A DNA stretch of 64,000 bases, taken from positions 1 to 64,000 of the forward strand of contig MKWA01000008.1 in the NCBI GenBank assembly GCA_001899285.1. Direction: 5' to 3'. Positions 1 to 62,122 of this stretch are shown here, in pieces. A program made the position numbers and the translations under genes. Below the pieces are notes generated by a model, which was not told the origin of the DNA, made no database searches, and saw only the letters and a list, made by a program, of their open reading frames with translations. The DNA comes from Rhizobiales bacterium 64-17 (GTDB taxonomy: Bacteria; Pseudomonadota; Alphaproteobacteria; Rhizobiales; Xanthobacteraceae). Every line of letters starts with the position of its first letter. Position 1 is the stretch's first letter.

Positions 1-182
1 GGCGGCGGCAGATCATGCTCGACGATTCCGACGTGCATCACCATCGTCATTCCAAGGCGGCGGTGGGCGGTGTCGCCGCAGCGGCGATCGGCGACCCGGC
101 GGTGTTCGTCTCGGTCGACGCCATGCACCAGGGACCGCATGGCGGTGGCCCGGTTATTGCTATCATCGACGCGGGTGAGTGA
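1..182 (+). CDS. Ring-opening amidohydrolase (cyanuric acid hydrolase/barbiturase family), C-terminal 59 residues
   Basis: Only the 3' end is in the window; the frame open from base 3 runs to a TGA at 180-182. The order [27 protein letters not shown] matches the tail of the AtzD/TrzD/barbiturase fold (from memory, Pseudomonas AtzD has MLSDSD, RHARA and HQGPAGGGP at the same places). These cytoplasmic enzymes hydrolyse the cyclic amide of cyanuric acid or barbiturate. Most of the catalytic Ser/Lys residues lie upstream and cannot be checked. An importer permease follows 75 bp downstream on the same strand, so it probably heads or continues the catabolic operon. The family is well supported by the tail alone; the substrate is not determinable. 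Confidence 0.85.
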
Positions 183-257
183 CGTCCGGGTTGGAACAAT
201 TCGGGTGGGACGCCGCCTCGCATAGCGGGGCGGCGTGACGGCCAACGGAGGGCGGTT

Positions 258-911
258 ATGGATTTCCAGTGGGATATTTTCGTTGAAGCGATCCCCGCGC
301 TCCTTGGCGGCGCCTGGCTGACCATTCAACTCACCATCATCTCGGTGGCGATCGGTCTGGCGCTCGGCCTCTTCGTGGCGCTTGGCCGCGTCTCGGCCAA
401 TCCGGTGACCAGCAAACTGGCGGCGGCTTACACCACCGCGATGCGCGGCATCCCGCTGCTGGTCACGCTGATGTTCCTTTATTACGGCTTGCCGTCCGCC
501 GGTCTCCAGTTGTCCGCGTTCACCGTCGCGGTGATCGCGCTGGCGGTGACGAACGCAGCCTATGTGGCCGAGATCATCCGCGCCGGTATCCAGTCGATTG
601 ACCGGGGACAGATGCGCGCGGCGCGCTCGCTCGGCATGTCCTACGGACTGGCGATGCGCCGAATCATCCTGCCGCAGGTGGTGCGCCGTGTATTGCCGCC
701 GATCACCAATGAATCGATCACGCTGCTCAAGAATACGGCGCTGGTCTCGACCATCGCGCTCAGCGAACTGCTCCGGTCCGGCCTCGAGGTCATGACCTGG
801 AAGGCCAACACGTTCAGCCCGTTTGCCGGTGTCGCTCTCATGTATCTGATGATGACGCTGCCGATGATCTGGTTCGTCTCCCGCCTCGAAAAGCGGTTCG
901 CCATCCCGTGA
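258..911 (+). CDS. Polar amino-acid-type ABC transporter permease
   Basis: This is a 217-residue integral membrane permease of the HisM/GltK type. It has about five hydrophobic segments and the family coupling loop near residues 112-135 (AARSLGMSYGLAMRRIILPQ), which contacts the ATPase. A good ribosome site, GGAGG at 246-250, precedes the ATG. Its stop overlaps the GTG of the next gene (GTGA), showing translational coupling. With the binding protein at 2249 and the ATPase at 3043 it makes a complete one-permease importer. Because it is embedded among amidohydrolases, it likely imports the heterocyclic or amide substrate of this cluster rather than an amino acid; that is inference. Confidence 0.9.
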   Translation: MDFQWDIFVEAIPALLGGAWLTIQLTIISVAIGLALGLFVALGRVSANPVTSKLAAAYTTAMRGIPLLVTLMFLYYGLPSAGLQLSAFTVAVIALAVTNAAYVAEIIRAGIQSIDRGQMRAARSLGMSYGLAMRRIILPQVVRRVLPPITNESITLLKNTALVSTIALSELLRSGLEVMTWKANTFSPFAGVALMYLMMTLPMIWFVSRLEKRFAIP

Positions 912-2242
912 CCTCGGTAACTCGCAACATGCCGCTGACCGTAGCCAATGGCATCGTTGCGACGCTCGATGCGTCGGCGCGGGTGTTGATGCGGGAGAAT
1001 GTGGTGGTCGAGGGTGGGCTGATCGCCTCGGCCGGCGGCCACGATGTCAGAGGCGAAACCCTCAACGCATCCGGCGGCATCGTCATGCCGGGCCTGTTGA
1101 ACTCGCACTGTCATTCGCCGGAGACGCTGGCGCGCGGCGTCGTCGATCGCATCATCTATGAGGACTGGATCGGCGCGGTCTGGCCGCCGCTCGATCAACT
1201 TACCCCGGAGCAGATTCGCGTCGCGGTGCTGCTGGGCTGTGCCGAGATGCTGCATTCGGGAACGACGGCGGTGGTCGATCACTTCCGGCAGACGCCGATG
1301 CGGCTTGAGGCTGTCGAAGCGGCTGTGGCAGCCTATCGCGAGGCGGGGATGCGGTGCGCGATCGCGATCATGGTGCGCGACCGGTCCGTTCCCGCATGGG
1401 TCACGGACAAGGGCGGCGATATTTCCGAACTCCTCGGTGCCGCGATCGACACGTGGCATGATCCGGACAGCCTGATCACCGTTATGCTGGCGCCCTCGGC
1501 GCCGCACCGCTGCACTGACGCGCTACTCCGGCGGGTGGGGGAGATTGCGGCCGACCGTGATCTGTTCATGCAGATGCACGTCGACGAAAATCAATCGCAG
1601 CGCCATGAGGCGAATGGAATCTACGGTCATTCGAGCATCAGGCATCTCGATTCCCTGGGGCTGCTCGACCGGCGGTTAAGCCTGGCGCACTGCGTCTGGG
1701 TCGATGACGTGGATCTCAGCCTGCTGGCCGGACACGACGTCACGGTGGTGCACAACCCCGTGAGTAATCTGCGGCTTGGCAGTGGTGTCGCGCCGATTCC
1801 GGAGATGCTGGAGCGTGGCATTGCCGTGACGCTCGGCGCCGATGGCGCCGCCAGCAACGACAGCCAGAGCATGCTGGAGGTGATGAAGCTGGCGAGCCTG
1901 CTGCCCGGAACGTCCGGGGTCAGTCCGCGGCCGACCGCCCCCGACATCCTCGCCATGACCACCGGCACGGCAGCGGCACGGTTCGGCATGGAAGATGTCG
2001 GCAGGATCGCTCCCGGCCAGAAAGCCGACCTCGTCGTGTTCGAGGGAAACGATCCGCGCCTGCACCCGCTCAACGATGTGCATCAGCAGATCGTGTTCGC
2101 CGGCGCTGGAATTCGCGCTCGACATGTCGTCATTGACGGCCGCGTGGTGGTGCGAAACGGGAAAATACAGACGTTCGACGAAGAGGCGTTGCTGCGCGAA
2201 GCGGATGAATTCCGTGCCTTCCAACAGAAAAAATATATGTGA
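908..2242 (+). CDS. Amidohydrolase superfamily protein, deaminase/chlorohydrolase type
   Basis: This is a 444-residue subtype-III metal hydrolase of the SsnA/TrzN/guanine-deaminase branch. The metal ligands are visible: H67 and H69 in NSHCHSPE (the usual HxH here has Cys between the histidines), the Glu-containing MHVDENQ, the His of LAHCVWV, and the Asp of LGADGAASND. Members hydrolyse exocyclic amino or chloro groups from purine, pyrimidine or triazine rings. The GTG at 908 overlaps the permease stop; an ATG at 929 (MPLTVANG) is an equally plausible start. The C-terminal FGMEDVGRIAPGQKADLVVF is the family's typical composite beta-domain return. The exact substrate cannot be assigned. Confidence 0.88.
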   Translation: MTSVTRNMPLTVANGIVATLDASARVLMRENVVVEGGLIASAGGHDVRGETLNASGGIVMPGLLNSHCHSPETLARGVVDRIIYEDWIGAVWPPLDQLTPEQIRVAVLLGCAEMLHSGTTAVVDHFRQTPMRLEAVEAAVAAYREAGMRCAIAIMVRDRSVPAWVTDKGGDISELLGAAIDTWHDPDSLITVMLAPSAPHRCTDALLRRVGEIAADRDLFMQMHVDENQSQRHEANGIYGHSSIRHLDSLGLLDRRLSLAHCVWVDDVDLSLLAGHDVTVVHNPVSNLRLGSGVAPIPEMLERGIAVTLGADGAASNDSQSMLEVMKLASLLPGTSGVSPRPTAPDILAMTTGTAAARFGMEDVGRIAPGQKADLVVFEGNDPRLHPLNDVHQQIVFAGAGIRARHVVIDGRVVVRNGKIQTFDEEALLREADEFRAFQQKKYM

Positions 2243-2248
2243 GGACGC

Positions 2249-3040
2249 ATGCCGACGACAGGGTCACTGAACAAGATTGGATTGGCGGTCGCGCTGCTGG
2301 GAGCCATTGTTTTGTCCAGCCTTCCGATCGCCGGCGCGCGTGCCGATGCCCTTGAGCAGATCAAGAAGGCCGGCGAGGTGAAGATCGCCAATTCAGGCGT
2401 CTATCCGCCGTTCGAGTTTAAGGAAGGAGCGACGCTGGTCGGGTTCGATATCGATCTGTCGAATCTCGTCGCACGCGAAATGGGCGTGAAGGCCAATATC
2501 TCGGTGGTGGATTTCAAGGGGCTGATCCCGGCGCTGAAAAGCGGGAAAGCGGATCTGCTGATTTCGGCGATGACGCATACGCCTGCGCGCGCCGAGCAGG
2601 TGGCTTTCTCCAATTCCTATTACGATACGGCGGTGGCCATCGCTGTCCGCGACGACAGGACCAATCTCAAGGCCAAGGATCAACTGGCCGGCCTGACACT
2701 GGGCGCCGAACTCGGCACCACTGGCGAACGGGAGGCGCGGAGCGTCAATGGCGTCAAGGAAGTGAAAACCTACGACACGCTGATGCTTGCTTTGCGCGAC
2801 CTTGAAATCGGCCGGATCGATGCGATCATCAGCAATCTGCCGCCGCTGCAATATCTCATTCACAAGAACTTCAAGCGGGTGCGGGTCACGGGCACATACG
2901 ACGCCGGCTGGGTCGGGATCAACGTGAATCCGAGCGAGACGGCCTTGCTGGCGGAGGTCAATCGCATCCTCGCCAAGCTGAAGGCCAGCGGCGAGCTGGA
3001 TGCGCTCAAGGTCAAGTGGTTCGGCGAGGCGGGAAAGTAG
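2249..3040 (+). CDS. ABC transporter substrate-binding protein, family 3
   Basis: This is a 263-residue periplasmic receptor of the amino-acid/ectoine type (SBP_bac_3). A signal peptide is visible (hydrophobic residues 8-30, likely cleavage after GARADA). The mature start, [20 protein letters not shown], and the block [15 protein letters not shown] are hallmarks of the family. It lies 6 bp after the amidohydrolase and 2 bp before the ATPase start, so it is part of one tight operon. It probably delivers the cluster's substrate to the permease encoded at 258. Ligand identity cannot be read from the sequence. Confidence 0.92.
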
Positions 3041-3042
3041 AC

Positions 3043-3810
3043 ATGTCGCATCTCATTCGCGTCTCCGGACTGCACAAATCATACGGTCCGCTCCACGTTC
3101 TCAAGGGCATCGACATGACCGTCGAGCCCGGCGAGGTGGTGTGCGTCATCGGCCCGAGCGGGTCGGGTAAGAGCACGTTGTTGAACTGTCTGAACTTTCT
3201 CGAACCCTATGGTCCCGGCGAAGTCTGGATCGACGGCATGCTGGTCGGTTACGAGAAGAGGTCGGACGGCTCGATGGTCAAGGTCGCCGATCACAAACTC
3301 AACGCGACGCGCACCGCGATCGGCATCGTCTTCCAGCAGTTCAACCTGTTCCCGCATCTCAAGGTGATCGAGAATATCATCGAGGCGCCGGTGCGCGTGC
3401 GCAAGATTCCCGCGCAGCAGGCGCGCGACAAGGCGTGTGAACTGCTGACAAAGGTCGGTCTGGCTGACAAGGCCGAAGCCTACCCCTCGCAACTTTCGGG
3501 CGGTCAGCAGCAGCGCGTCGCCATCGCCCGCGCGCTGGCGATGGAGCCGAAGGTCATGCTGTTCGATGAAGTCACCTCGGCGCTCGATCCGGAGCTGGTC
3601 GGCGAGGTGCTCGGAGTGATGAAGGGCCTTGCCCGCGACGGGATGACCATGTTCGTCGTCACGCACGAAATGGCGTTCGCGCGCGAGGTGGCGGATCGCG
3701 TGGTGTTCATGGCCGATGGCGAAATCGTCGAGCAGGGTCCGCCGTCGGAGATTTTCGGCAATCCGCGCAGCGAGCGGTTGCGCAATTTCCTCGGCCGGTT
3801 TCGTGGGTGA
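3043..3810 (+). CDS. Polar amino-acid-type ABC transporter ATP-binding protein
   Basis: This is a 255-residue ATPase of the HisP/GlnQ family. It has Walker [10 protein letters not shown] (about 37-45), the Q-loop QQFNLFPH, the signature [15 protein letters not shown], Walker B VMLFDE with the D-loop SALDPE, and the H-loop VTHEM. I place the start at ATG 3043, 2 bp after the binding-protein stop; an upstream GTG at 3016 would overlap that gene and add nine unconserved residues. The stop overlaps a GTG at 3807 belonging to the next frame. It energises import of the cluster's substrate. Confidence 0.92.
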
Positions 3811-3815
3811 TAGCG

Positions 3816-5078
3816 ATGACTGAACAGGCTCCCGTCGATCTCATCGTCAAGAATGCGCGCCCGTGGGGCAAGGACAAGCCGCAGGATTTCGCCTTCGCGG
3901 GTGGCCGCTATGTCGATGCCAGCACGGCGAAGGCGGCGGACGGCGCGCACGTGATCGATGCCAAGGGCAAGATGGCGATACCGGGTTTTGTCGAGCCGCA
4001 TATTCATCTCGACAAGGCGCTCATCAATGAGGACGTTCGCGTCAACGTCTCCGGGACGCTGTCGGAGGCGATCGAGATCATCTGGGAGCGCAAGAAGCGC
4101 TACACCGTCGAGGATATTGTCGGGCGGGCCGGGCGTGTCATCCGCTCCGCGGTCTCCAACGGCGTTACCCGCATGCGCTCGCATGTGGACGTGGACAATA
4201 TCGGCGGGTTGAAGCCGCTGGAGGGCGTGCTGGAGGCGCGGCGGCGTTACGCCGGCCTGATCGATCTGGAGATCGTCGCATTCCCACAGGAGGGCATCCT
4301 CAAGAATCCGGGAACCGAGAAGCTGCTGTATGAGGCGATGGAAATGGGCGCCGACGTAGTCGGCGGCATGCCGTTCAACGAGGCGTCACCGGAGGACAGC
4401 CGCGAGCATATCCGCATCGCCTTCGATATCGCGCAGAAATACGATGCGGACGTCGACATGCACGTCGACGAAACCGACAACCCGCAGGCGCGGACCCTGG
4501 AAATGTTCGCGCGGATGACGATCGACCGCGGTTGGCACGGGCGAGTTACCTCCGGCCACACCTGTGCGCTCGCCGCCTATCCGGATGATTATGCCGCCCG
4601 CGTGATCGCGCTCGTCAAAGAGGCGGGTATGAACATGATCACAAATCCAGCCACCAACCTGATGCTCCAAGGTCGCACCGACAAACAGCCGATCCGGCGT
4701 GGGATCACGCGGGTGAAGGAGTTGCTCGCGGCAGGCGTGAACGTGTCGTTCGGGCAGGATTGCGTGAAGGATACGTTCTATCCATTCGGCCGCGCGGATT
4801 CGCTGGAAGTGGTGCTCATCACCGCGCACGCCGCGCACCTCAGTCAACCGGCCGAGATTGAGGAAGCCTTCGCCATGCCGACGCGCAACGCGGCGAAGCT
4901 CCTGCGGCTCGATGATTACGGCATGGCGCCCGGCTGCCCCGGCGATCTGGTGATCCTGGACGCGACGTCGGCGGCCGACGCGATCACGCAGCAGGCCGAT
5001 CGGCTTTTCGTCGTCAAGAATGGACGTGTCGTCGCCGAAACGATCACCGAGCGCAAGTTGCACTGGCAGGACAACTGA
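3816..5078 (+). CDS. Cytosine-deaminase/AtzC-like amidohydrolase
   Basis: This is a 420-residue amidohydrolase closest in motif order to CodA and N-isopropylammelide hydrolase (AtzC). It has PGFVEPHIHLDKAL with H62 and H64, DMHVDETDNP, the metal-binding region SGHTCALAAY, TNPATNLMLQGR and SFGQDCVKDTFYPFG carrying the catalytic Asp. CodA has HCDE, SHTT and FGHDDV at the matching places, so the equivalents here (HVDE, GHTC, FGQDCV) suggest a different ring substrate. ATG 3816 is preferred; GTG 3807, overlapping the ATPase stop, is the alternative. It is predicted to remove an exocyclic amine or alkylamine from a ring in the cytoplasm. Confidence 0.87.
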   Translation: MTEQAPVDLIVKNARPWGKDKPQDFAFAGGRYVDASTAKAADGAHVIDAKGKMAIPGFVEPHIHLDKALINEDVRVNVSGTLSEAIEIIWERKKRYTVEDIVGRAGRVIRSAVSNGVTRMRSHVDVDNIGGLKPLEGVLEARRRYAGLIDLEIVAFPQEGILKNPGTEKLLYEAMEMGADVVGGMPFNEASPEDSREHIRIAFDIAQKYDADVDMHVDETDNPQARTLEMFARMTIDRGWHGRVTSGHTCALAAYPDDYAARVIALVKEAGMNMITNPATNLMLQGRTDKQPIRRGITRVKELLAAGVNVSFGQDCVKDTFYPFGRADSLEVVLITAHAAHLSQPAEIEEAFAMPTRNAAKLLRLDDYGMAPGCPGDLVILDATSAADAITQQADRLFVVKNGRVVAETITERKLHWQDN

Positions 5079-5137
5079 TACTGGCGGCGCTCGGCCGTCT
5101 GCAGAACCAACAACAAAAACGATCTGGAGTTTGATCA

Positions 5138-6250
5138 ATGTCTCATATCGATGGATTGCGCATCGTCGGTTACTTCGACTGCCCCGGTGGCGGGCAGATC
5201 GTGGTCAACAAGAACACCGCTTATGTCGGCCACATCAAGCCGCCGAACGGAACGTCGATTGTCGATGTCAGCGATCCTTCCAAGCCACGCCTCATTGCCG
5301 AAGTCAAAACCCCGGAACAAACGCTGTCGCATAAGGTTCGCGTCGAGAACGACGTGATGCTGGTCAACCGGGAGGTTTACCCGATCGGCCGCAAGGATCC
5401 GGATTTCAAGGGCGGCCTCGAAGTCTTCGACGTCTCAACACCGTCGAAACCGCGGCATATCGCGACGTGGCAGACGCGGGGTATGCACCGCTTCACGTTC
5501 GACGGGCGCTATGTCTACGGCTCTCCGGAAATGGACGGGTATCTCGGCAACATCGTCCAAATCATCGACTTCGCGAAGCCCGACAAGCCGGAAGAAGTCG
5601 GCCGGTGGTGGATGCCGGGCCAATGGGCGGCGGGCGGTGAAATGCCGACCTGGAAGGGGACGGACCATCGTTGCCATCATCCGATGCGCGTCGGCAACCG
5701 CCTTTACACCAGCTACTGGCACGGCGGTTTTGTCATTCTCAACATCGACGACATGACCAAGCCGAAGTTCGTCTCCGGTCTCGACTGGAGTCCGCCGTTT
5801 CCGTGGCCGACGCACACGGCGCTGCCGGTGCCGTTCCTGCTGCGCGGCCGCCGCGTCATGCTGGTCGCGGACGAGGATGTGGGTCGGTTGGCCGGACCGA
5901 CATCGCCGTCGTTCCTGTGGCTGGTCGATATCACCGATGAAACCCGGCCGATGCCGTTCGCGAGTTTCCAGGTCGAGGATGAAGACGGTTTGCCGAAAGA
6001 GGACTACACCGGTCTGCATCAGTTCTGCGAGGATATTCGCAGCACCGAGATTCCGATCGCCTGGTTCGCGCGCGGCTTGCGGATCGTCGATATTGCCAAC
6101 CCGCATGCACCGAAGCAGGTCGCGTCGTTCATGCCGCCGGTGCCGGAAGGGGCCACGCGCGTGCAGAGCAACGACGTCTGCTACGATTCGCGCGGACTGA
6201 TCTATCTGATCGACCGGTCGCGCGGCTTCTATATCCTCGAGCGGATCTAG
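5138..6250 (+). CDS. LVIVD-repeat beta-propeller protein
   Basis: This is a 370-residue protein built of repeated blades with the LVIVD pattern: TSIVDVSDPSKPRLIAEV, GLEVFDVSTPSKPRHIATW, GFVILNIDDMTKPKFVSGL, WLVDITDETRPMPFASF and GLRIVDIANPHAPKQVASF. No signal peptide is evident, so it is probably cytoplasmic. A GGAG site at 5126-5129 supports the start. It follows the AtzC-like gene by 59 bp, so it is probably in the same operon. LVIVD proteins have no general assigned activity. Conserved His/Cys/Trp blocks such as DHRCHHPMR and GLHQFCED could bind metal or substrate, but this is only suggestive. Confidence 0.8.
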   Translation: MSHIDGLRIVGYFDCPGGGQIVVNKNTAYVGHIKPPNGTSIVDVSDPSKPRLIAEVKTPEQTLSHKVRVENDVMLVNREVYPIGRKDPDFKGGLEVFDVSTPSKPRHIATWQTRGMHRFTFDGRYVYGSPEMDGYLGNIVQIIDFAKPDKPEEVGRWWMPGQWAAGGEMPTWKGTDHRCHHPMRVGNRLYTSYWHGGFVILNIDDMTKPKFVSGLDWSPPFPWPTHTALPVPFLLRGRRVMLVADEDVGRLAGPTSPSFLWLVDITDETRPMPFASFQVEDEDGLPKEDYTGLHQFCEDIRSTEIPIAWFARGLRIVDIANPHAPKQVASFMPPVPEGATRVQSNDVCYDSRGLIYLIDRSRGFYILERI

Positions 6251-6270
6251 CGAGCAGTTGTTGGTGAGCG

Positions 6271-6295
6271 GGCGGCGATAGCGCCGCTCGCCGCC
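6271..6295. terminator. GC-rich hairpin between convergent genes
   Basis: Arms GGCGGCG (6271-6277) and CGCCGCC (6289-6295) flank an 11-nt loop in the 79-bp gap between the convergent LVIVD and LysR genes. There is no T-run on either side, so this is at best a weak bidirectional terminator. Confidence 0.3.
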
Positions 6296-6329
6296 GGCGC
6301 GGATTGAAGAAGAGCTGCGGCGCCAGCGC

Positions 6330-7247
6330 TCAAGCTTTGCCCGCCGGCTGCAGCAGCCAGTTGATCAGGGTCTTCTTGCGGCGGGACAGCGCCTGCCGCG
6401 AGTGATAGGCGCTGATCGTCATCGTCGCGGCATTGCCGATCGGGCGCTGCTCGATCAAGCCGAGCTTGATGGCGTCGTCGGCCGATCCGGTCGGAATGAT
6501 CGCGATCCCCGTTCCGGTCTGCACCATCATCTTGATGGTCTCGACATTGTCGACGATGGCGCGGATGCGCGGCTGGATCCCTAGATCGGTGAACATCTTA
6601 TGGACGATCTGGCCATAGCCGATCGACAGCTCGTTCATGATGATCGGCTCATGCGCGAGCATGGCAATGTCGATGGCGCGGCCTTCTTCGGCCAGCGGAT
6701 GCGCCTTGGGCAGGATCAAGGTGAAATCCAGCGTCAGCAGTGGCGTTCCGACGAGGCCGGTCGGCACGCGATCCGGTCCGACATCGACCACCAGCCCGAG
6801 GTCGATCTTGTCTTCGCACAGCGCATCGAACACCAGCCGGGTCGGCGTGGTGCGGATTTCCAGATGAAGGTTGGACGGGAAGGGCGACCGCGGAAACAGA
6901 TGTGGGATCAGCGCCGGCGCGAGGCCCGATCCCATGCCGAGCACCAGGGATTCCACATCGGCGCCGCTGAGGCGGCGGGCCACGTCGCCGAGCTTCATCA
7001 GGTCGGAAAAGACGTGCTCGGCCTCGTAGAGAAACATCCGGCCGCGCTCGGTCTGCTCGATGCCCCGGCTGGTGCGGCGGAACAGATCGAAGCCGATGCG
7101 GGTCTCGAGTAGCTTGATCTGCTCCGACACCGCCGACTGGGTGATGTTGAGCTGATTGGCGGCCTTGGTGAAGCTGCGTTCGCTGGCGACGGCAAGCGCG
7201 TAGCGAATCTGCCTGATCTCCATCCAAAGCTCGATCTGGGATGCCAT
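6330..7247 (-). CDS. LysR-family transcriptional regulator
   Basis: This is a typical LysR regulator of about 305 residues. The N-terminal winged helix-turn-helix reads RYALAVASERSFTKAANQLNITQSAVSEQIKLLE, here given in two pieces: RYALAVASERSFTKAAN and QLNITQSAVSEQIKLLE. A periplasmic-binding-protein-like effector domain follows. ATG 7247 is chosen because GGACGAG precedes it; ATG 7223 (MEIRQIRYAL) matches the usual LysR start and is a real alternative. It is divergent from the amidase at 7378 and convergent with the importer/amidohydrolase operon. By family habit it should control the divergent gene and perhaps the whole island in response to a pathway intermediate; AtzR plays this role for atzDEF. 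This is inference. Confidence 0.9.
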   Translation of the reverse strand: MASQIELWMEIRQIRYALAVASERSFTKAANQLNITQSAVSEQIKLLETRIGFDLFRRTSRGIEQTERGRMFLYEAEHVFSDLMKLGDVARRLSGADVESLVLGMGSGLAPALIPHLFPRSPFPSNLHLEIRTTPTRLVFDALCEDKIDLGLVVDVGPDRVPTGLVGTPLLTLDFTLILPKAHPLAEEGRAIDIAMLAHEPIIMNELSIGYGQIVHKMFTDLGIQPRIRAIVDNVETIKMMVQTGTGIAIIPTGSADDAIKLGLIEQRPIGNAATMTISAYHSRQALSRRKKTLINWLLQPAGKA

Positions 7248-7377
7248 TTCTCGTCCGTTCAAGGGTGGAATCGGGGGCAGCCATCGGGCGGCCCGATAGC
7301 CGCATCATCAATTGTTGTTGGACAGGTCCGGCCGGCTACGAAAAGCTTTGTGCCGAAAACCGGAGTGCCGAAGCCTC

Positions 7378-8787
7378 ATGATGAATGTCTCACGCACCTC
7401 CGCAGTCGAGTTGGCGACCCGTATCAAGCAGAGAGACGTCTCTCCTGTCGAGGTGCTTGATGCGCATCTGGAGACCATCGCGGTCCAGAATCCGAAATTT
7501 AATGCGATTGTCACCCTGGCGGAAGACAAGGCGCGATTAGCCGCAAAGGCCGCCGAGGCCGCCGTTCTAAACAATGAAACGCTTGGGCCGCTGCACGGCC
7601 TGCCGGTGGTGATCAAGGATGTCACCCTGACGGCCGGCATCCGGACAACCTACGGTTCGCCGCTCTACAAGGATTTCGTGCCGGATGAGGATGCCGCGGT
7701 GGTCGCGCGCCTGCGCCGTGCGGGCGCCATCATCCTCGGAAAGACTAACGTGCCGGAGTTCGCGACCGGCGCCAACACCGTCAACCCGCTGTTCGGCGCC
7801 ACGCGCAATCCGTGGAATCCGGAATTGAGTCCCGCCGGTTCGTCGGGCGGCTCGGCGGTGGCGGTGGCGAGCGGCATGGTGCCGATCGCGCACGGCACCG
7901 ACTTCGGATGCTCGGTGCGCATTCCGGCGTCGTTCTGCGGCATCGTCGGGGTCCGCACCACCGGCGATCTCATTCCCAACGAAGGCATGCGCCTGCCGTG
8001 GGACACCGGTCAGGTGCACGGACCGTTGGCGCGCTCGGCGGAAGATGCGGCGCTGATGCTCGATGGCATGGTCGGGCTCGATCCGTTGTGGCCGGCATCG
8101 GCAATGCCGCCGTGGTCGAGCGCGCTCGCCGAGGTGCAGCGCACCGACAATGCCAAGGGTCTGCGCGTCGCTTATGTCTCGGACATTTCCGGCCTCGGCG
8201 TCGACAAAGATGTCGACGATCTCTGCCGCGCGGCGGCGAAGCGTCTCGCGGACGACGGCGCGGCCGTCGAGGAGATCACGTTCAACGTCTCCGAAGGGAT
8301 CGACGCCTACAAGGTGCTGCGCGGTCAGTGGATGGTTGGGCAGCAGCTCGAGCGCATGGCGATGCTGCCGGAGTTCGGTCCGAACCTGGCCGGCAATATC
8401 CGCGATGGTCTCAAGCTGACGGTCGAAGATATCGCCAAGGCGGAAGCGGTTCGCGAGAAGTGCTTGAAGAAATTCCGCGATCTCCTATCGCGTTACGATT
8501 TCCTGCTGACGCCGACCGCGCCGGTGACACCTTATCCGGTCGTGAAGAATTTTCCCGACCTGATCGGCGGCAAGCGCCTGGACAATTACATCGACTGGGT
8601 TGCATCCAACTTCCTCGTCACGATGGTCGGTTTCCCCGCCGGATCGGTCCCGTGCGGGAAGACCGCTGCGAACCTGCCGGTCGGCTTGCAGATCGTCGGT
8701 CCGCGTTTTTCCGAACCGCGCATCCTCGGTCTGTCAAAACTCGTGCAGCGCCGCGCGTCGGTCGGCTGGCCGACATTCGCCGGATAG
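7378..8787 (+). CDS. Amidase signature family hydrolase
   Basis: This is a 469-residue amidase with the Ser-cisSer-Lys triad: K80 in GLPVVIKDV, the SPAGSSGGSA block near 151-160, and nucleophile S179 in DFGCSVRIPA (most relatives have GGS here). ATG 7378 or the adjacent ATG 7381 is the start; the in-frame TTG at 7312 would add a basic leader with no support. It probably acts in the cytoplasm on a linear amide or ureido product of ring opening, the role of AtzE or ureidomalonase in related pathways. That assignment rests on context. It is divergent from the LysR gene. Confidence 0.9.
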   Translation: MMNVSRTSAVELATRIKQRDVSPVEVLDAHLETIAVQNPKFNAIVTLAEDKARLAAKAAEAAVLNNETLGPLHGLPVVIKDVTLTAGIRTTYGSPLYKDFVPDEDAAVVARLRRAGAIILGKTNVPEFATGANTVNPLFGATRNPWNPELSPAGSSGGSAVAVASGMVPIAHGTDFGCSVRIPASFCGIVGVRTTGDLIPNEGMRLPWDTGQVHGPLARSAEDAALMLDGMVGLDPLWPASAMPPWSSALAEVQRTDNAKGLRVAYVSDISGLGVDKDVDDLCRAAAKRLADDGAAVEEITFNVSEGIDAYKVLRGQWMVGQQLERMAMLPEFGPNLAGNIRDGLKLTVEDIAKAEAVREKCLKKFRDLLSRYDFLLTPTAPVTPYPVVKNFPDLIGGKRLDNYIDWVASNFLVTMVGFPAGSVPCGKTAANLPVGLQIVGPRFSEPRILGLSKLVQRRASVGWPTFAG

Positions 8788-8852
8788 CGATCGGGGAGAT
8801 TGGCATGGGGCATCGTCATCGAAGCGCGACGAACGAGCCCTTCGGTTTCATC

Positions 8853-10241
8853 CTATCGCTTGATCCAGGCGACGTTCGGCGCCGCCTGAGGCGCGCGCAG
8901 CAGATACCGGCCATTGGCTTTGTCGACAATCTCGCCGTCGCGCGCGATCACGACACCGTTCTTGATGGTGACGACCGGCCAGCCCTTGAGCGTCTTTCCC
9001 TCGAACGGCGAGAAATCCGACATGCCGCGCAGGTTTTCGGCGCGCACGGTTTTCTCCAGATCGAGATCGACCACCACAAGATCGGCATCCGAACCCACGG
9101 CAATCGTTCCCTTGCGCGGGTAAAGGCCGAACACCCGCGCCGGCGCACGCGTGGCGCCGTCGATCAGCGTTTCGAGCGGGATATCGTGTTGCTGGCCGAA
9201 ATGCAGCAGTGCCGGAAGATGCGTTCCGAGCAACGGCAATCCCGGCCGCGAGCCATGCAGGCCGGCCTCCGGTTTCTTGCCGCCGCGGGTGCGCGAGGTG
9301 TTGTCCGTGCCGATCGTGTTGATCGAGCCTTCGGCAACGCCCTGCCAGAGCGCCTCCTGATGCGAGGGGGGACGAACCGGCGGCACGGCTTTTGCAAGAA
9401 ATCCGTTCGGATCGCGATCATTGATGCCAAGAAACGTCGTCGTGGTCTCGACGGTGAAATTCAATCCCTGTCGCCGTGCTTGCCGCACGACCTCAAGGCC
9501 ATCGCTGCTCGAGAGATGCACGACATAAAGATGAGCACCGGCAACCTGCGCCAAATACAACGCGGTCTGGATTGCGAGGGCTTCCGCTTCCGGCGGGTGG
9601 GCCAGTGTCCAGTCGGCCAGCGTGCCGTCGGGCTTCTCCTGCAATGCGGTGCGCGCGGCCGCGATCAGCGAACCGGTCTCGCAATGCACGCAGGTGATCG
9701 CGTCCGGGCCGACGGCGGCCACGGCCCGGAAGCCGCGCAGCAGCATGTCGTCGGGGACCGAATTCACGATCCCCGGCAGGCCGGACATGTAGAATTTGAA
9801 CGAGCGGATGCCGTAATCGCGGACGTAGACGGGGATCTCGGAAATCTGTTCGTCGTTGAAAAGTTGCGGATGGAAGATCGAGTCGACGTAACTCTTTTCA
9901 TCCATCGCCTTCCGGAAACCCGGCAGATGCTTGAGGTAGGAGTCCTGCAAGCTGCGGATGAAAATGCCGATGGTGGTGACGCCGCCGAGAATGGCAGCGC
10001 GCGTTTCGGTCTCGGCTTCCTCGTCGAACGATCGTTCATTGCCGATATGCGTATGCGGATCGAAGATGCCGGGGATGGTCAGCTTTCCGGACGCATCGAC
10101 AACCGTTTCGCCCGACAGATTCTCGCCAAGCGCGACGATCTTTCCGTTGGCGACAGCGATGTCGGCGCGCATGCGGCCGACGCCGGGTATCAGCGCCGTG
10201 CCGCCTTTGACTACAAGATCGGCAGCGATTTTGGATGACAT
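8853..10241 (-). CDS. Dihydropyrimidinase/hydantoinase-like amidohydrolase
   Basis: This is a 462-residue cyclic-amide hydrolase of the D-hydantoinase/allantoinase family. Metal-site residues are H63 and H65 (DPHTHIG), the carboxylatable lysine K149 (SFKFYMSG), H186 (VHCETG), H242 (YVVHLSS) and D313 (IGTDNTSR). The DN in place of the common DH after IGT is unusual. ATG 10241 is the start because the following MSSKIAADLVVKGG fits the family; 82 further upstream codons look noncoding. It is convergent with the amidase and divergent from the NMT1-type receptor. Within the island it supplies a second ring-opening activity next to the AtzD/barbiturase-type enzyme. Confidence 0.9.
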   Translation of the reverse strand: MSSKIAADLVVKGGTALIPGVGRMRADIAVANGKIVALGENLSGETVVDASGKLTIPGIFDPHTHIGNERSFDEEAETETRAAILGGVTTIGIFIRSLQDSYLKHLPGFRKAMDEKSYVDSIFHPQLFNDEQISEIPVYVRDYGIRSFKFYMSGLPGIVNSVPDDMLLRGFRAVAAVGPDAITCVHCETGSLIAAARTALQEKPDGTLADWTLAHPPEAEALAIQTALYLAQVAGAHLYVVHLSSSDGLEVVRQARRQGLNFTVETTTTFLGINDRDPNGFLAKAVPPVRPPSHQEALWQGVAEGSINTIGTDNTSRTRGGKKPEAGLHGSRPGLPLLGTHLPALLHFGQQHDIPLETLIDGATRAPARVFGLYPRKGTIAVGSDADLVVVDLDLEKTVRAENLRGMSDFSPFEGKTLKGWPVVTIKNGVVIARDGEIVDKANGRYLLRAPQAAPNVAWIKR

Positions 10242-10387
10242 GTTTGCAACCAGTTCTCTGATCTGCTCGCGTTTGATGGATGTGCCGAGGCTGGAATGAG
10301 GTGAATGATATACTCGATTGCTTGATGTCTGCATCAATCTTTTCGAGTGATTCTGTAAGTGTCGAACAACCGTGAAAGGGGATCGCG

Positions 10388-11410
10388 ATGTTGACTCTCT
10401 CTGCGAAGCTGTCTGCCGGTCTGATTGCCGGATTGCTGCTGGCTGCGACAAGCGCTGTGCAGGCGCAAACGCCGGTGAAATTTTCACTCGATTGGAAATT
10501 TGACGGACAGATGGCGCCGTTTCTGGTGCCGTTCGACAAAGGCTATTTCAAAGCGCAAGGACTTGACGTCACCATTGACACGGCTGCGGGGTCGCTCGAG
10601 CCGATCAACCGCGTTGCGTCGGGCGTCTATAATATGGCGTCGGGCGACATGAACTCTCTCATCAAGTTCCTCGACGCCAATCCGAGCGCGCCGGTCAAGG
10701 CCGTCTTTCTCGTTCACGACAAGCCGCCGTTTGCCATCATCAGTCTGAAATCGCGCGGCGTCGCAAAGCCGGCCGACCTCGTCGGCAAGCGGCTCGGCGC
10801 GCCGTCGGCGGACGCCGCTTATGCGCAGTGGAATATTTTCACCAAGGCCAACAACATCGATCCGTCGAAGGTGACGGTGGACAACATCGGATTTCCTGTG
10901 CGCGAGCCGATGCTGGCGGCCGGGCAGGTTGATGCGATCGCTGCGTTCTCTTTCAACGCGATCAATCTGAAGGAACGCGGCGTTCCGGCGAACGACATCG
11001 TGGTCATGCTGATGTCGGATTACGGCGTGAAGCTCTACGGCAACGTGATCATGGTGAACACGAATTTCGCCAAGGAACATCCGGACGCGGTCCGGAAGTT
11101 TCTCGCCGCCTTCGCCAAGGGGTTGAAGGACACGGTCAAGGATCCGGATGCCGCCATCGAGTCGATCATGAAGCGCAATGGAGTCGCCAAGAAGAGCGTC
11201 GAGCTGGAGCGGCTTCAGATGGTGCTGAAGGACAACATCGTTACCGATGAGACCCGCAAGAACGGCTTCGGTCGGATCGACAATGCGCGGTTCGATCAGG
11301 CGGTCGATCAGATCGCGTTGACCTATACGTTCAAGAACGCGAAGCCGAAAGCCACCGCCATCTTTGATGCGTCGTTCCTGCCGAGCGCGGCGGATCTGAA
11401 GTTCAACTGA
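10388..11410 (+). CDS. ABC transporter substrate-binding protein, NMT1/THI5-like
   Basis: This is a 340-residue periplasmic receptor with a clear signal peptide (cleavage likely after SAVQA, residue 26) and the NMT1-family opening VKFSLDWKFDGQMAPFLVPF, followed by KGYFKAQGLDVTIDTAAGS. AAAGGGG at about 10373-10379 is its ribosome site. Such receptors deliver pyrimidine precursors, riboflavin, taurine or aromatic sulfonates. No NMT1-type permease or ATPase gene is next to it, so partners must lie elsewhere. It is divergent from the dihydropyrimidinase-like gene across a 146-bp promoter region, which fits uptake of a pyrimidine-like compound. Confidence 0.88.
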   Translation: MLTLSAKLSAGLIAGLLLAATSAVQAQTPVKFSLDWKFDGQMAPFLVPFDKGYFKAQGLDVTIDTAAGSLEPINRVASGVYNMASGDMNSLIKFLDANPSAPVKAVFLVHDKPPFAIISLKSRGVAKPADLVGKRLGAPSADAAYAQWNIFTKANNIDPSKVTVDNIGFPVREPMLAAGQVDAIAAFSFNAINLKERGVPANDIVVMLMSDYGVKLYGNVIMVNTNFAKEHPDAVRKFLAAFAKGLKDTVKDPDAAIESIMKRNGVAKKSVELERLQMVLKDNIVTDETRKNGFGRIDNARFDQAVDQIALTYTFKNAKPKATAIFDASFLPSAADLKFN

Positions 11411-11454: not shown

Positions 11455-11713
11455 AGGGCCGCCTTGGGTGCGGCCGGCCACGGTTGGGCTTTTCGGGCAC
11501 CAGCCCCATATAAAAAGAGCATCGGCCGGGCATCGGGCCCTGAGATACTCCCGCGGGCCGGAAGGTCAGGGGCTGTGAGCCGTCTGTACGGCCCGGCAGG
11601 CTGTCGTTGACGGCAAATCCTTTATGCTTAAAATAATTCGCAGAAGCCCGGCTGCGTGATAAATGTGCTGTGGACCCGTCCGAAAGGCGGGTCGGGCGCG
11701 CGTGGAGTTTGAC

Positions 11714-13864
11714 ATGGCGGAGCGTTCATTCGCCCGGGAAGTTGAGGATCTCAAGCTCGGCGCCGGCGAGGAATTTCGCGGCGAGGGCATCCTCGCGATC
11801 ACCAAGGCGCTGTTGCAGTCCGGCGTCGGTTATGTCGGTGGCTATCAGGGCGCGCCGATCTCGCATCTGATGGACGTGTTGTCGGATGCCCAGGGCATCC
11901 TGTCCGACCTCGATGTGCATTTCGAGACCTCGGCCTCGGAGGCGGCAGCCGGTGCGATGCTGTCGGCCTCTGTGAACTATCCCATCCGTGGCGCCGTCAC
12001 CTGGAAATCGACCGTCGGCACCAATGTGGCGTCCGATGCGCTCGCCAATCTCGCCTCGGGCGGAGTCAAGGGTGGCGCGCTGATCATCATCGGCGAGGAC
12101 TACGGTGAAGGCTCCTCGATCATGCAGGAGCGCTCGCACGCGTTTGCGATGAAGTCGCAGATCTGGCTGCTTGATCCGCGGCCGAATCTCGAAAGCATCG
12201 TCAAGGCGGTGGAAGACGGGTTCGAACTTTCCGAAGCATCGAATACCCCGGTGATGCTGGAGGTGCGTATCCGCGCCTGCCATGTGCACGGCCGGTTCAT
12301 CGCCAAGGACAACAAGCGGCCTACCTATACGCTGAAGCAGGCGCTGGAAAATCCGCAACGCGACACCAGCCGTATCGTGCTGCCGCCGGCGGCCTATGTG
12401 CACGAGAAAGAAAAGATCGAGCAGCGCTGGCCCGCCGCCGTGCGATTCATCAAGGAGCGCAAGCTCAACGAGACGATGCCGGGCGATGTGAGTCATCTCG
12501 GCATCATCCTGCAGGGCGGCATGTATAACGGCGTGATCCGCGCGCTGCAGGATCTCGGCTTCGCCGATGTGTGGGGCAACTCCCGCATTCCGCTCTACGT
12601 GATGAACGTCACCTATCCGCTGATCGACGACGAGATCGTCGCGTTCTGCGAAGGCAAGAGCGCGGTGCTGATGGTCGAGGAAGGTCAGCCCGATTACATC
12701 GAGCAGGCGCTGCACAAGATTTTGCGCGTCGCCGATGTGCCGGCGCGCATTCACGGCAAGGACGTGCTGCCGATCGGCGGCGAATATACGGCGGTGGTGC
12801 TGGCGACCGGCATGCGCAGCTTCCTGTCGAAAGCCGCGCCGGACCTGCTGCCGGATCAGGTGCGCGCCTCCAACAATCCGTCGATCATGGCGAGCGACGA
12901 GATCAAGGCGCTGGCCGAAGTCGTGCCGGCGCGTCCGGCGGGATTCTGCACCGGCTGTCCGGAGCGGCCGATCTTCGCGGCGATGAAGCTGGTCGAGAAG
13001 GAACTCGGGCAGCACCATGTCTCGGCCGACATCGGCTGCCACCTGTTCTCGATCCTGCCGCCGTTCAACATCGGCGCGACCACCATGGGTTACGGCCTCG
13101 GCCCGGCGTCGGCATCCGCGTTCAATGTGAAGGCGGGCAAACGGTCGATCGCGATGATGGGCGACGGCGGCTTCTGGCACAACGGCCTGACCAGCGGCAT
13201 CGGCAACGCGGTGTTCAACAAGCACGACGGCGTCGTGATGGTGGTCGACAACTATTATTCGTCGGCGACCGGCGGGCAGGACATCCTGTCCTCGCGCGCC
13301 GACAACGGCTCACGCTCGACCAAGCATCCGATCACCGAGGCGGTGAAGGGTATTGGCGCCAAATGGGTGCGGCAGATTGATCGGACCTACGATGTCGCCA
13401 AGCTGCGCGACACGCTCAAGGAGGCGCTGACCACGCCCGAGGCGGGGCCGAAGATCATCGTCGCATCGTCGGAATGTATGTTGAACAAGCAGCGGCGCGT
13501 GAAGCCGCTGTTCAATAAGGCGGTGAAGGGCGGTGAGCGGGTTGTGCGCGAACGCTTTGGCGTCGATGAAGACGTTTGCACTGGCGACCACGCCTGCATC
13601 CGGCTGTCCGGTTGCCCGTCGTTGTCGGTCAAGCACACCGCCGATCCGTTGAAGGACGATCCGGTGGCGGCGATCGACAATACCTGCGTCGGTTGCGGTA
13701 ACTGTGGCGAGGTGGCGGAAGCGGCGGTGTTGTGTCCGTCGTTCTATCGCGCCGATATCGTTTACAATCCCACCGGTTTCGACCGCTTCATGGCGCGTTT
13801 GCGCGCCGGTGTGATCGGTTTCCTGCAGCGTCGCCGTGAACGGCGTCGCCCGGCTCTGGCCTGA
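11714..13864 (+). CDS. iorA: Indolepyruvate ferredoxin oxidoreductase, alpha subunit
   Basis: This is a 716-residue thiamine-diphosphate enzyme that oxidatively decarboxylates aryl pyruvates to aryl-acetyl-CoA with ferredoxin as acceptor. The N-terminal pyrimidine-binding half has GYQGAPISHLMDVL. The TPP-binding half has the FCTGCPERP block and MMGDGGFWHNGLTSGIGNAV. The C-terminus is a ferredoxin-like domain whose second cluster site is CVGCGNC followed by CP, while the first (CTGDHAC, SGCP) is short of one canonical Cys. ATG 11714 is preferred over 11663 because GGAG at 11704-11707 sits at the right distance. iorB follows 4 bp after the stop. Confidence 0.88.
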   Translation: MAERSFAREVEDLKLGAGEEFRGEGILAITKALLQSGVGYVGGYQGAPISHLMDVLSDAQGILSDLDVHFETSASEAAAGAMLSASVNYPIRGAVTWKSTVGTNVASDALANLASGGVKGGALIIIGEDYGEGSSIMQERSHAFAMKSQIWLLDPRPNLESIVKAVEDGFELSEASNTPVMLEVRIRACHVHGRFIAKDNKRPTYTLKQALENPQRDTSRIVLPPAAYVHEKEKIEQRWPAAVRFIKERKLNETMPGDVSHLGIILQGGMYNGVIRALQDLGFADVWGNSRIPLYVMNVTYPLIDDEIVAFCEGKSAVLMVEEGQPDYIEQALHKILRVADVPARIHGKDVLPIGGEYTAVVLATGMRSFLSKAAPDLLPDQVRASNNPSIMASDEIKALAEVVPARPAGFCTGCPERPIFAAMKLVEKELGQHHVSADIGCHLFSILPPFNIGATTMGYGLGPASASAFNVKAGKRSIAMMGDGGFWHNGLTSGIGNAVFNKHDGVVMVVDNYYSSATGGQDILSSRADNGSRSTKHPITEAVKGIGAKWVRQIDRTYDVAKLRDTLKEALTTPEAGPKIIVASSECMLNKQRRVKPLFNKAVKGGERVVRERFGVDEDVCTGDHACIRLSGCPSLSVKHTADPLKDDPVAAIDNTCVGCGNCGEVAEAAVLCPSFYRADIVYNPTGFDRFMARLRAGVIGFLQRRRERRRPALA

Positions 13865-13868
13865 TCGC

Positions 13869-15434
13869 ATGAACGCACTTACCCCGATCCCCGGCATCTC
13901 CACCAAGCCGATCTCCGTCGCCGTGCTGGCCATGGGCGGGCAGGGCGGCGGCGTGTTGATGGACTGGATCGTCGCGCTTGCGGAAAGCCAAGGCTTCATC
14001 GCCCAGTCGACCTCGGTCCCCGGCGTGGCGCAGCGCACCGGCGCGACGATCTATTATGTCGAGATGATCAAGGCGCGGCCCGACGGCGTGCAGCCGGTGC
14101 TGTCGCTGATGCCGGAGCCCGGCCATGTCGATGTGGTGGTCGGCGCCGAGCTGATGGAAGCCGGCCGCGCGATCTTGCGCGGGCTGGTGACACCGGAGCA
14201 GACGACGCTGATCGCCTCGTCGCACCGCTCGTTCGCGGTGCAGGAGAAGATCGCGCCGGGCGACGGCATCGGCGATCCGGACAAGGTGTTTGAGGCGGCG
14301 CAGGTCGCGGCACGACGATTCATCGCGTTCGACATGGCGCAGATCGCGGAGCAGACCGGCAGCGCGATTTCCGCCGTGCTGTTCGGCGCGCTCGCGGCGT
14401 CGGGCACCTTGCCGTTTGCACGCGGGGCTTACGAGGAAACCATCAAGGCGGCGGGTGTCGGCGTGGCTGGCAGTCTGCGCGCCTTTGCCGCCGGTTTCGA
14501 TGCGACGGCGGCTGCCACCGCACCGGTGATGCCGCCGCCGGTGACGGATATCAAGATCGCGCCGGCTCTGGCGCCGATCGGCCATCCCGGCTTCGATGCG
14601 CTGGTCGCGCGGGCGCAAAACGAATTTACCACGACCGCGCACGGCATGCTGGCCGCCGGCCTGCGCCGCGTCGTCGATTTTCAGGACGTCGCCTATGGTG
14701 GCGAGTATCTCGATTTGGTTGCCGCTCTGAAGCCGTTTGCGCGCGATGGCAATCCGGAATTGCTGGATGCGGCGGCGAAATACATCGCCACGGCGATGGC
14801 CTATGACGACGTTATCCGCGTCGCCGATCTCAAGACCCGCGCCACGCGATTCGCGCGCGTACGTGCGGAAGTTGCCGTGGCCGACGAACAACTGGTCTAT
14901 ATGACCGAGTTCATGCACCCGCGCATGGACGAGGTCGCCGGCACGCTTCCCGCCGGATTGGGCGAGTGGATCGAGGCGCGGCCGCGCCTATTCCGCGCGC
15001 TCGATCGCGTGGTCAACAAGGGCCGGCGCGTGCAGACCGGGACCATCCGCTGGTTCCTGCCGCTTTATATTCTCGGCGGGATGCGCCGTTTCCGGCGCGG
15101 CTCGCTGCGCCACAAGCGCGAGGTCGCGCATCGCGATCACTGGCTTGCCGCGGTGTGCGCGGCCGCCGCGCATGATCATGCGCTGGCGGTGGAGATGCTG
15201 CAGCTTCGCCGTCTGGTGAAGGGCTATTCCGACACCCACGCGCGTGGCCTGTCCAAATTCGATCGCGCGCTGGCGGCGGCGCAGCGTCTTGCCGGACGCT
15301 CCGACGCGGCCGACTGGACGCGCCGGTTGCGGCAGGCGGCGCTGGCCGACGAGGAGGGCACCGCGTTGACCGGGGCGATCGCCACCGTCGACAGTTTCCT
15401 CGCGGACGAAGCGACTACGACGTTACGCCACTAG
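13869..15434 (+). CDS. iorB: Indolepyruvate oxidoreductase, beta subunit (long form)
   Basis: This is a 521-residue partner of IorA. The N-terminal ~190 residues are the pyruvate:ferredoxin oxidoreductase gamma-type domain with AVLAMGGQGGGVLMDW (nucleotide/CoA loop) and SVPGVAQRTGATIYYVEMI. The remaining ~300 residues are an extension not found in archaeal IorB (about 200 residues) but seen in proteobacterial homologues; I cannot give it a function. ATG 13869 is preferred to GTG 13836, which overlaps iorA. The pair is co-transcribed and cytoplasmic, and probably serves aromatic amino-acid degradation. Confidence 0.85.
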   Translation: MNALTPIPGISTKPISVAVLAMGGQGGGVLMDWIVALAESQGFIAQSTSVPGVAQRTGATIYYVEMIKARPDGVQPVLSLMPEPGHVDVVVGAELMEAGRAILRGLVTPEQTTLIASSHRSFAVQEKIAPGDGIGDPDKVFEAAQVAARRFIAFDMAQIAEQTGSAISAVLFGALAASGTLPFARGAYEETIKAAGVGVAGSLRAFAAGFDATAAATAPVMPPPVTDIKIAPALAPIGHPGFDALVARAQNEFTTTAHGMLAAGLRRVVDFQDVAYGGEYLDLVAALKPFARDGNPELLDAAAKYIATAMAYDDVIRVADLKTRATRFARVRAEVAVADEQLVYMTEFMHPRMDEVAGTLPAGLGEWIEARPRLFRALDRVVNKGRRVQTGTIRWFLPLYILGGMRRFRRGSLRHKREVAHRDHWLAAVCAAAAHDHALAVEMLQLRRLVKGYSDTHARGLSKFDRALAAAQRLAGRSDAADWTRRLRQAALADEEGTALTGAIATVDSFLADEATTTLRH

Positions 15435-62111: not shown

Positions 62112-62122
62112 GCGAGGGTGTC

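Follow-up and report, generated by a model that had tools for sequence, protein, structure and literature searches.

We analysed a gene cluster, probably for oxidative pyrimidine degradation, at the start of a 64-kb window of DNA. The window opens contig C8 of Rhizobiales bacterium 64-17 (genome G000; 4.63 Mb in 26 contigs), which by kinship belongs to Pseudolabrys. An earlier note had listed the genes at positions 1–11,410, and each was recovered at about the place it had been given by open reading frames and family models. The cluster opens with the end of a gene for a barbiturase-like ring-opening amidohydrolase (the ring-opener; 3–182, +), of which the C-terminal 59 residues (3–179) and the stop codon are present; this tail scores 79.6 bits against PF09663, over the cut-off of 25, and intact orthologues also match the family. 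Next on the same strand are an ABC permease of the polar amino acid type (258–911; HisM/GlnP-like; PF00528, 2e-22; TIGR01726 over its cut-off), a TRZ/ATZ-type amidohydrolase and probable deaminase called AH1 (908–2242; PF01979, 9e-54; motifs NSHCH, MHVDE, AHC and GADGA), the family-3 periplasmic binding protein of the importer (2249–3040; PF00497, 1e-38), its ABC ATPase (3043–3810; PF00005, 5e-33; start chosen at 3043 in a frame that opens at 3016), a CodA-like deaminase called CD (3807–5078; NF005748, 394 bits against a cut-off of 438; CodA chains at about 2e-87; residues compared below) and an LVIVD beta-propeller protein (5138–6250; six invariant His/Glu residues). The genes at 258–5078 overlap or are closely spaced, and because the whole run from ring-opener to LVIVD lies on one strand with overlapping or tight spacing, the layout suggests one operon.

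A LysR regulator (6330 to ~7223, −; PF00126, PF03466) diverges from AMD, an amidase-signature enzyme and candidate ureidomalonase (~7378 to 8787, +; PF01425, 3e-104; motifs IKD, GSSGGS and GCSVRIP). These are followed by HYD, a cyclic amidase of the hydantoinase/dihydropyrimidinase family (8853 to ~10241, −; relatives 4tqt and 1gkr; motifs HTH, FK, VHCE, VHLS and GTDN) that scores 268 bits against TIGR02033, below the curated D-hydantoinase/dihydropyrimidinase cut-off of 393, and by an NMT1/THI5-type periplasmic binding protein (10388–11410, +; PF09084, 5e-45) that has no permease or ATPase of its own here. Catalytic or metal motifs are kept in HYD, AMD, AH1 and CD, and the two ring-opening folds beside an LVIVD propeller that had been remarked on earlier are present as HYD and the barbiturase-like tail.

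The contig break and the identity of the ring-opener

Contig C8 begins inside the ring-opener gene, and the 5′ part is therefore missing from the window. PF09663 matches two places in G000, the start of C8 and the end of C18, which closes with the same gene end (97% identity over 115 bp). Synteny with contig C35 of the Pseudolabrys genome G001, at 93.7% over 7.9 kb on one side and 95.3% over 16 kb on the other, indicates that contig C21 stops immediately short of the ring-opener and that the gap to C8 measures about 1.0 kb. In G001 both copies are intact, one in a window-type locus on C35 and the other in a C18-type locus on C134; the C35 copy and that on C1 of a second Pseudolabrys relative, G018, are 100% identical to the window over the tail. 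Because the same gene end closes C18 and opens C8, G001 has two intact copies and C21 stops just short of the gene, a duplicated ring-opener most likely broke the assembly. For the part beyond base 1, whose recovery the earlier note had called for, the intact genes of G001 and G018 and the C21/G001 synteny serve as guides. Reading G001 and C21 together, the upstream genes encode the FAD, 2Fe-2S and large subunits of a molybdenum hydroxylase, a family-3 binding protein, a CobW GTPase and a second LVIVD protein, so that three genes separate the hydroxylase from the ring-opener. At the C18-type loci (G000:C18:1–7629 and G001:C134), the second barbiturase-like copy is accompanied by an NMT1-type importer, and HyuA–HyuB precede the copy in G001 and other relatives.

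The intact G018 orthologue matched the PDB entry 5hwe, 'Barbiturase', at 3e-151 (241/363 positions identical, 66%) and cyanuric acid hydrolases at 2e-92 and weaker. According to an excerpt of Peat et al. 2013 (PMC3758960), barbiturases carry N195, H321, K325, V345 and S/A346 (AtzD numbering), whereas cyanuric acid hydrolases carry R, T, R, G and G. The ring-opener has four of the five barbiturase residues: His321, Lys325 and Val345 are readable in the window tail, together with Asp346, and Asn195 was read in the intact copies only (both of G001 and that of G018). None of Arg195, Thr321, Arg325, Gly345 and Gly346, the residues of cyanuric acid hydrolase groups I–III, was found in it. In an alignment of 118 rows, 96 read NHKVD, 5hwe NHKVS, 18 other AtzD-family genes of relatives RTRGG, and three variants of RTRGG. 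The 96 NHKVD rows are those at least 75% identical to the G018 protein (87 are distinct over the last 340 residues); 5hwe is 66% identical to it and the remaining rows at most 44%. Almost all rows (116/118) retain the catalytic Lys, Arg and Ser. In a maximum-likelihood tree of 60 rows, some with branches flagged as long, the 38 NHKVD sequences included joined 5hwe at 100/100, apart from 21 rows of the cyanuric-hydrolase type. The 5hwe match, the signature residues and the tree placement thus make the ring-opener a barbiturase-like protein of a sister clade with one changed pocket residue and a predicted activity. Asp replaces Ser/Ala of the characterised barbiturase group at position 346 in the window tail and in 96/96 rows, so the substrate may differ, and for this reason we call the protein barbiturase-like and do not file it in group VI of the AtzD/Bar family (as that group appears in the excerpt of PMC3758960).

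More distant members of the family were also seen. Two diverged AtzD-family genes (33–34% identity) stand with ornithine-cyclodeaminase-like and octopine-dehydrogenase-like genes at G018:C1:2586443–2590457 and possibly encode a ring-opener of other function; plasmids of Citrobacter, Klebsiella, Enterobacter and others carry AtzD-family genes (about 46% identity) annotated as ring-opening amidohydrolases.

Conserved neighbours and the proposed route

Linkage was measured in 80 loci from named genomes. They were retrieved with the barbiturase-like alignment as the best 80 of at least 539 relatives and thus sample the closest ones. Neighbours were counted at ≥40% identity and half coverage; 51/80 loci are shorter than the full 21 kb, which lowers the counts, and near-duplicates occur, for which reason counts were also made by 45 groups at 90% identity. 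AMD homologues were found in 28/80 loci, or 32/80 with a second amidase type included, compared to about 2.1 amidases of any kind (PF01425 matches) expected in that much sequence at the density of G000. A CodA-like deaminase was found in 20/80 loci, LysR in 23/80, the three parts of the C18-type NMT1 importer in 30, 29 and 26 (the binding protein in 30), HyuA in 25, HyuB in 29 and malonyl-CoA synthetase in 4. Malonyl-CoA decarboxylase was present in 7/80 loci (5/45 groups) compared to 0.30 expected. That expectation takes a single copy per 4 Mb for every taxon, and the probes were picked after the gene had been seen in these loci; the excess is clear even with related loci merged.

Among 43 Pseudolabrys genomes searched, 14 have a barbiturase-like gene, and an AMD homologue lies in the fetched stretch with a copy in 14/14. 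Malonyl-CoA decarboxylase matches occur in 41/43 (one in 39 genomes, two in G018, two partial in G007), and the second full copy of G018 lies inside the window-type cluster, between LysR and LVIVD. A Bradyrhizobium locus (L090) has the order LysR, deaminase, ring-opener, amidase, malonyl-CoA decarboxylase, malonyl-CoA synthetase, and none of the sought neighbours was found at a Nonomuraea locus (L198). Other Pseudolabrys genomes also group the ring-opener, variously arranged, with amidase, deaminase, LVIVD and hydantoinase, and the combination of ring-opener, amidase, deaminase and LysR is more widespread; since the same parts recur together in other genomes, the gene set is not a chance one. 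The search for co-occurrence that the earlier note had proposed thus found parts of the set together elsewhere. The note's idea of an island for N-heterocycle catabolism, equipped with an importer, deaminases, a cyclic-amide-opening enzyme, an amidase and LysR, is borne out.

AllF/AllG-like genes, of the oxamate carbamoyltransferase kind, were found in 9/80 loci and never together with an amidase (32/80; hypergeometric 0.007; by groups 7 and 23 of 45, 0.004), the pattern expected if both handle the same ureide; amidase and AllFG look like alternative partners. A carbamate-kinase-like gene of the amino acid kinase family is present in 4/80 loci, all with AllFG-type genes. The entry for PMC11326118 identifies AllFGH as the oxamic transcarbamylase of Escherichia coli. 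AllF/AllG-like genes stand beside barbiturase-like genes at L084, L086, L092, L101, L121, L143, L146 and L151, some of which also have carbamate-kinase-like, malonyl-CoA decarboxylase and malonyl-CoA synthetase genes, an arrangement that looks like an ATP-saving split of ureidomalonate. At an Embleya locus (L199), an amino-acid-kinase-family gene, carbamate-kinase-like by eye, lies directly upstream of the ring-opener, and homologues of HyuB, CD and molybdenum hydroxylase lie within 12 kb.

We consider it likely that the locus serves oxidative pyrimidine degradation of the barbiturate type and takes a ring through barbiturate and ureidomalonate to malonate. Gene content, active-site residues, family placement and conserved linkage are the observed basis, from which we infer every reaction and the role of the regulator. 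Imported pyrimidine rings would be deaminated to barbiturate by CD and possibly AH1, and/or hydroxylated at C6 by the upstream-encoded molybdenum hydroxylase. The ring-opener, a predicted Toblerone-fold enzyme, would open barbiturate to ureidomalonate, which the amidase would split into malonate and urea; we know of no ureidomalonase sequence for comparison, and AMD is a candidate only. Malonate would enter metabolism through malonyl-CoA decarboxylase, LysR would sense a pathway compound, and hydantoinase and LVIVD would most likely serve in side steps, hydrolysing substituted rings or the products of their opening.

Entry substrates and alternative readings

CD keeps the CodA metal ligands and Gln156, His214, Glu217, His246 and Asp313, and it scores closer to CodA (297 bits) than to AtzC (191 bits). 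In the CodA substrate pocket, Thr66 is replaced by Lys, Asp314 by Cys and Trp319 by Phe, which is why we call CD CodA-like and not a cytosine deaminase. Lys65 of AtzC, at the same place as Lys66 of CD, hydrogen-bonds a ring oxygen of the substrate according to an excerpt of PMC4577212. Lys66 occurs in 24/28 deaminase rows near barbiturase-like genes, several of which duplicate one locus; the pattern hints at an aminouracil-like substrate that would give barbiturate directly, in an enzyme nearer CodA overall. AH1 belongs to the TRZ/ATZ group and has no close characterised relative in the PDB, its best solved relatives being AtzA (4v1x), an MTA/SAH deaminase (4f0r) and an 8-oxoguanine deaminase (7ww2).

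A molybdenum hydroxylase would fit uracil oxidation, and its linkage to the ring-opener appears moderate, with such an enzyme within 1.6 kb in 9/80 loci under a looser search (33% identity, no coverage filter). We no longer treat it as strong linkage evidence, since about 21 such enzymes were counted in G000 and the linkage is weak on that account. A CO dehydrogenase was rejected: the best NCBIfam model (CO dehydrogenase group 5) gave 582 bits where 950 is the cut-off, and the molybdenum subunit carries SFRGPGR but not AY.CSFR, a motif that we take to mark form I CO dehydrogenase. The reductive and Rut pathways were also rejected, as in 43/43 Pseudolabrys genomes (28 of them ≥90% complete and ≤5% contaminated) PreA had no match at E 1e-60 and no RutA exceeded the cut-off of 498 bits, one RutA-like match in G035 reaching 357. 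The surplus parts (hydantoinase, LVIVD and second deaminase) and Asp346 may leave several entry substrates possible, namely uracil, cytosine, thymine or an aminopyrimidine.

The six residues His117, Glu168, His180, His226, Glu246 and His294 of LVIVD are invariant in 34 aligned sequences, and the protein is probably a metal-dependent hydrolase; the beta-propeller phosphotriesterase of Sphingobium TCM1 (5hrm) is 22% identical to it. In the stretches fetched, LVIVD accompanies a barbiturase-like gene in five genomes (G000, G001, G018, G015 and G005) and HYD in four of these. In G005, ring-opener, amidase, LVIVD, deaminase and hydantoinase follow one another on one strand with gaps of −4, 156, 41 and 26 bases, and the same parts are reordered in G015; this recurrence with the ring-opener makes HYD and LVIVD real partners there. 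Other LVIVD proteins (53–58% identity) occur at L187, L189, L191 and further loci and in the window's genome at C10:40321–41415. That of L187 neighbours a cupin protein, a RidA-like (L-PSP) protein, a GST and a GMC oxidoreductase, with a similar setting by eye at L189, perhaps as part of another ring-cleavage pathway.

Several observations weigh against oxidative pyrimidine degradation as set out above. Besides Asp346 and the late choice of decarboxylase probes, the body of the ring-opener is absent from the window's own assembly, whose malonyl-CoA decarboxylase lies elsewhere, on C14. An excerpt of PMC4051656 names glutamine, not Asn, for barbiturase at the Arg188/195 place; at this position 97 rows of our alignment have Asn and 21 have Arg, and Asn is also given in the excerpt of PMC3758960. 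CD is by its residues not a plain cytosine deaminase, and in 9/28 deaminase rows (G005 and G015 included) Leu/Asp replace the His214/Glu217 pair of CodA. For the molybdenum hydroxylase, the many copies in G000 are joined by a modest excess near ring-openers (parts in 11/80 loci compared to up to 5.5 expected), and none was found near the G018 ring-opener, the other intact window-type locus. The textbook route assigns no role to hydantoinase, LVIVD or AH1, which were found in 2, 3 and 2 of the 80 loci, respectively, and of the 14 Pseudolabrys genomes with a barbiturase-like gene just 5 have LVIVD with it in the stretches fetched.

A real possibility, although short of probable, is that the substrate is a substituted pyrimidine-trione or aminopyrimidine and not uracil or cytosine: AH1 and CD would remove amino groups, with CD converting an aminouracil to the trione in the manner of AtzC, the NHKVD enzyme would open a 5-substituted barbiturate, and hydantoinase and LVIVD would hydrolyse unusual products. 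The invariance of Asp346, the prevalence of the AtzC-like Lys66 and the company of LVIVD and hydantoinase with the ring-opener in five and four Pseudolabrys genomes all argue for such a ring, whereas the higher score of CD against CodA than AtzC, the nine deaminase rows without CodA His214/Glu217 and the placement of most of the ring-opener clade in loci that yielded no AH1, HYD or LVIVD argue against it. This alternative shares the trione-to-malonate core with oxidative pyrimidine degradation, and the likelihoods given to the two overlap.

Degradation of hydantoin or of a purine-derived ureide, with the ring-opener as an accessory, is improbable. Hydantoin and allantoin routes are not known to give malonate, and this speaks against such a pathway at loci where malonyl-CoA decarboxylase and synthetase are linked, despite the D-hydantoinase family gene and the proximity of HyuA (25/80 loci) and HyuB (29/80 loci) to the ring-opener; the presence of the ring-opener in all 80 loci is not evidence, as the loci were fetched by that gene. 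Even less probable is that the transport and hydrolase genes are unrelated and only loosely assembled: beside the ring-opener, AH1 and the amino-acid-type importer are seen only in the window, G001 and G018, and an IorA-like gene downstream of the cluster occurs in 0/80 loci, but the genes at 258–5078 are too tightly packed, the amidase too constant in the 14 Pseudolabrys genomes and the reordered parts in G005 and G015 too alike for this to carry much weight. An atz-like s-triazine or cyanurate pathway was rejected as very improbable on specificity residues and tree, for although the ring-opener is of the AtzD family and AH1 and CD resemble AtzA and AtzC, it has N-H-K-V and not R-T-R-G and falls in a separate clade, other genes in the genus bear the cyanurate signature in another neighbourhood, and malonyl-CoA decarboxylase linkage is unsuited to a triazine.

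Two gene pairs outside the cluster were also noted. That at 11663–15434, a TPP-enzyme/POR-domain pair whose position after the cluster is kept in G001, resembles by look an indolepyruvate ferredoxin oxidoreductase; it was rejected as a pathway part on the absence of its IorA-like first gene near all 80 barbiturase-like loci. At 60897–63109, an FGE-sulfatase/DinB_2 protein stands beside a histidine-specific methyltransferase, by look EgtB and EgtD of ergothioneine biosynthesis.

Relation to known pathways and significance

The cluster is real, coherent and nearer to a known pathway than had been thought. The earlier note had held that the gene order matched neither of its templates; the barbiturase-type ring-opener, the amidase and the malonyl-CoA decarboxylase linkage do fit the oxidative pyrimidine route, and the specificity residues speak against s-triazine/cyanurate. 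Like Rhodococcus-type oxidative pyrimidine degradation, the cluster has a barbiturase-type ring-opener, an adjacent amidase, a deaminase, a molybdenum hydroxylase upstream in G001 and malonate-using genes in some relatives; it differs in Asp346, the extra hydantoinase, LVIVD, the second deaminase and the amino-acid-type importer. The organisms listed for group VI are, judging by their names, presumably Actinobacteria. The barbiturase-like loci found here are mainly from Proteobacteria, in contrast to the group VI organisms in the excerpt of PMC3758960. With the atz pathway (AtzA, AtzC, AtzD and an amidase) the cluster shares AtzA-like and AtzC/CodA-like amidohydrolases, an AtzD-family ring-opener and an amidase, whereas its barbiturase residues and clade, and a malonate-type rather than biuret-type linkage, set it apart. 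With the reductive pathway (PreA, dihydropyrimidinase) it shares one dihydropyrimidinase-family protein and an NMT1-type binding protein, a kind associated with pyrimidines, and differs in that PreA is unmatched in the Pseudolabrys genomes and HYD falls below the D-hydantoinase cut-off. The route through barbiturate and malonate is thus known, and the variant cluster adds hydantoinase, LVIVD, a second deaminase and Asp346.

To our knowledge, no gene other than that for barbiturase has been assigned to the oxidative pyrimidine pathway (none is named in the open-access titles and abstracts searched, which is no proof). The pathway itself was described in the 1950s, as an excerpt of PMC3758960 recounts. 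Candidate genes for ureidomalonase, namely the amidase or AllFG, emerge from the loci analysed here, as do weaker candidates for the uracil-oxidising enzyme (uracil dehydrogenase). The loci also provide a setting for the uncharacterised LVIVD propeller family and suggest a wider distribution of barbiturate-type degradation than the few genera in which it was first described. Speculatively, they may belong to a widespread, mainly proteobacterial route, a natural pyrimidine counterpart of atz, in which AtzA-like and AtzC/CodA-like deaminases would feed the Asp346 barbiturase-like clade, hydantoinase and the LVIVD metallo-propeller would take 5-substituted rings, and either the amidase or, depending on lineage, an AllFG-type transcarbamoylase working with a carbamate-kinase-like enzyme would split the ureide. 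If so, the latter split would save ATP.

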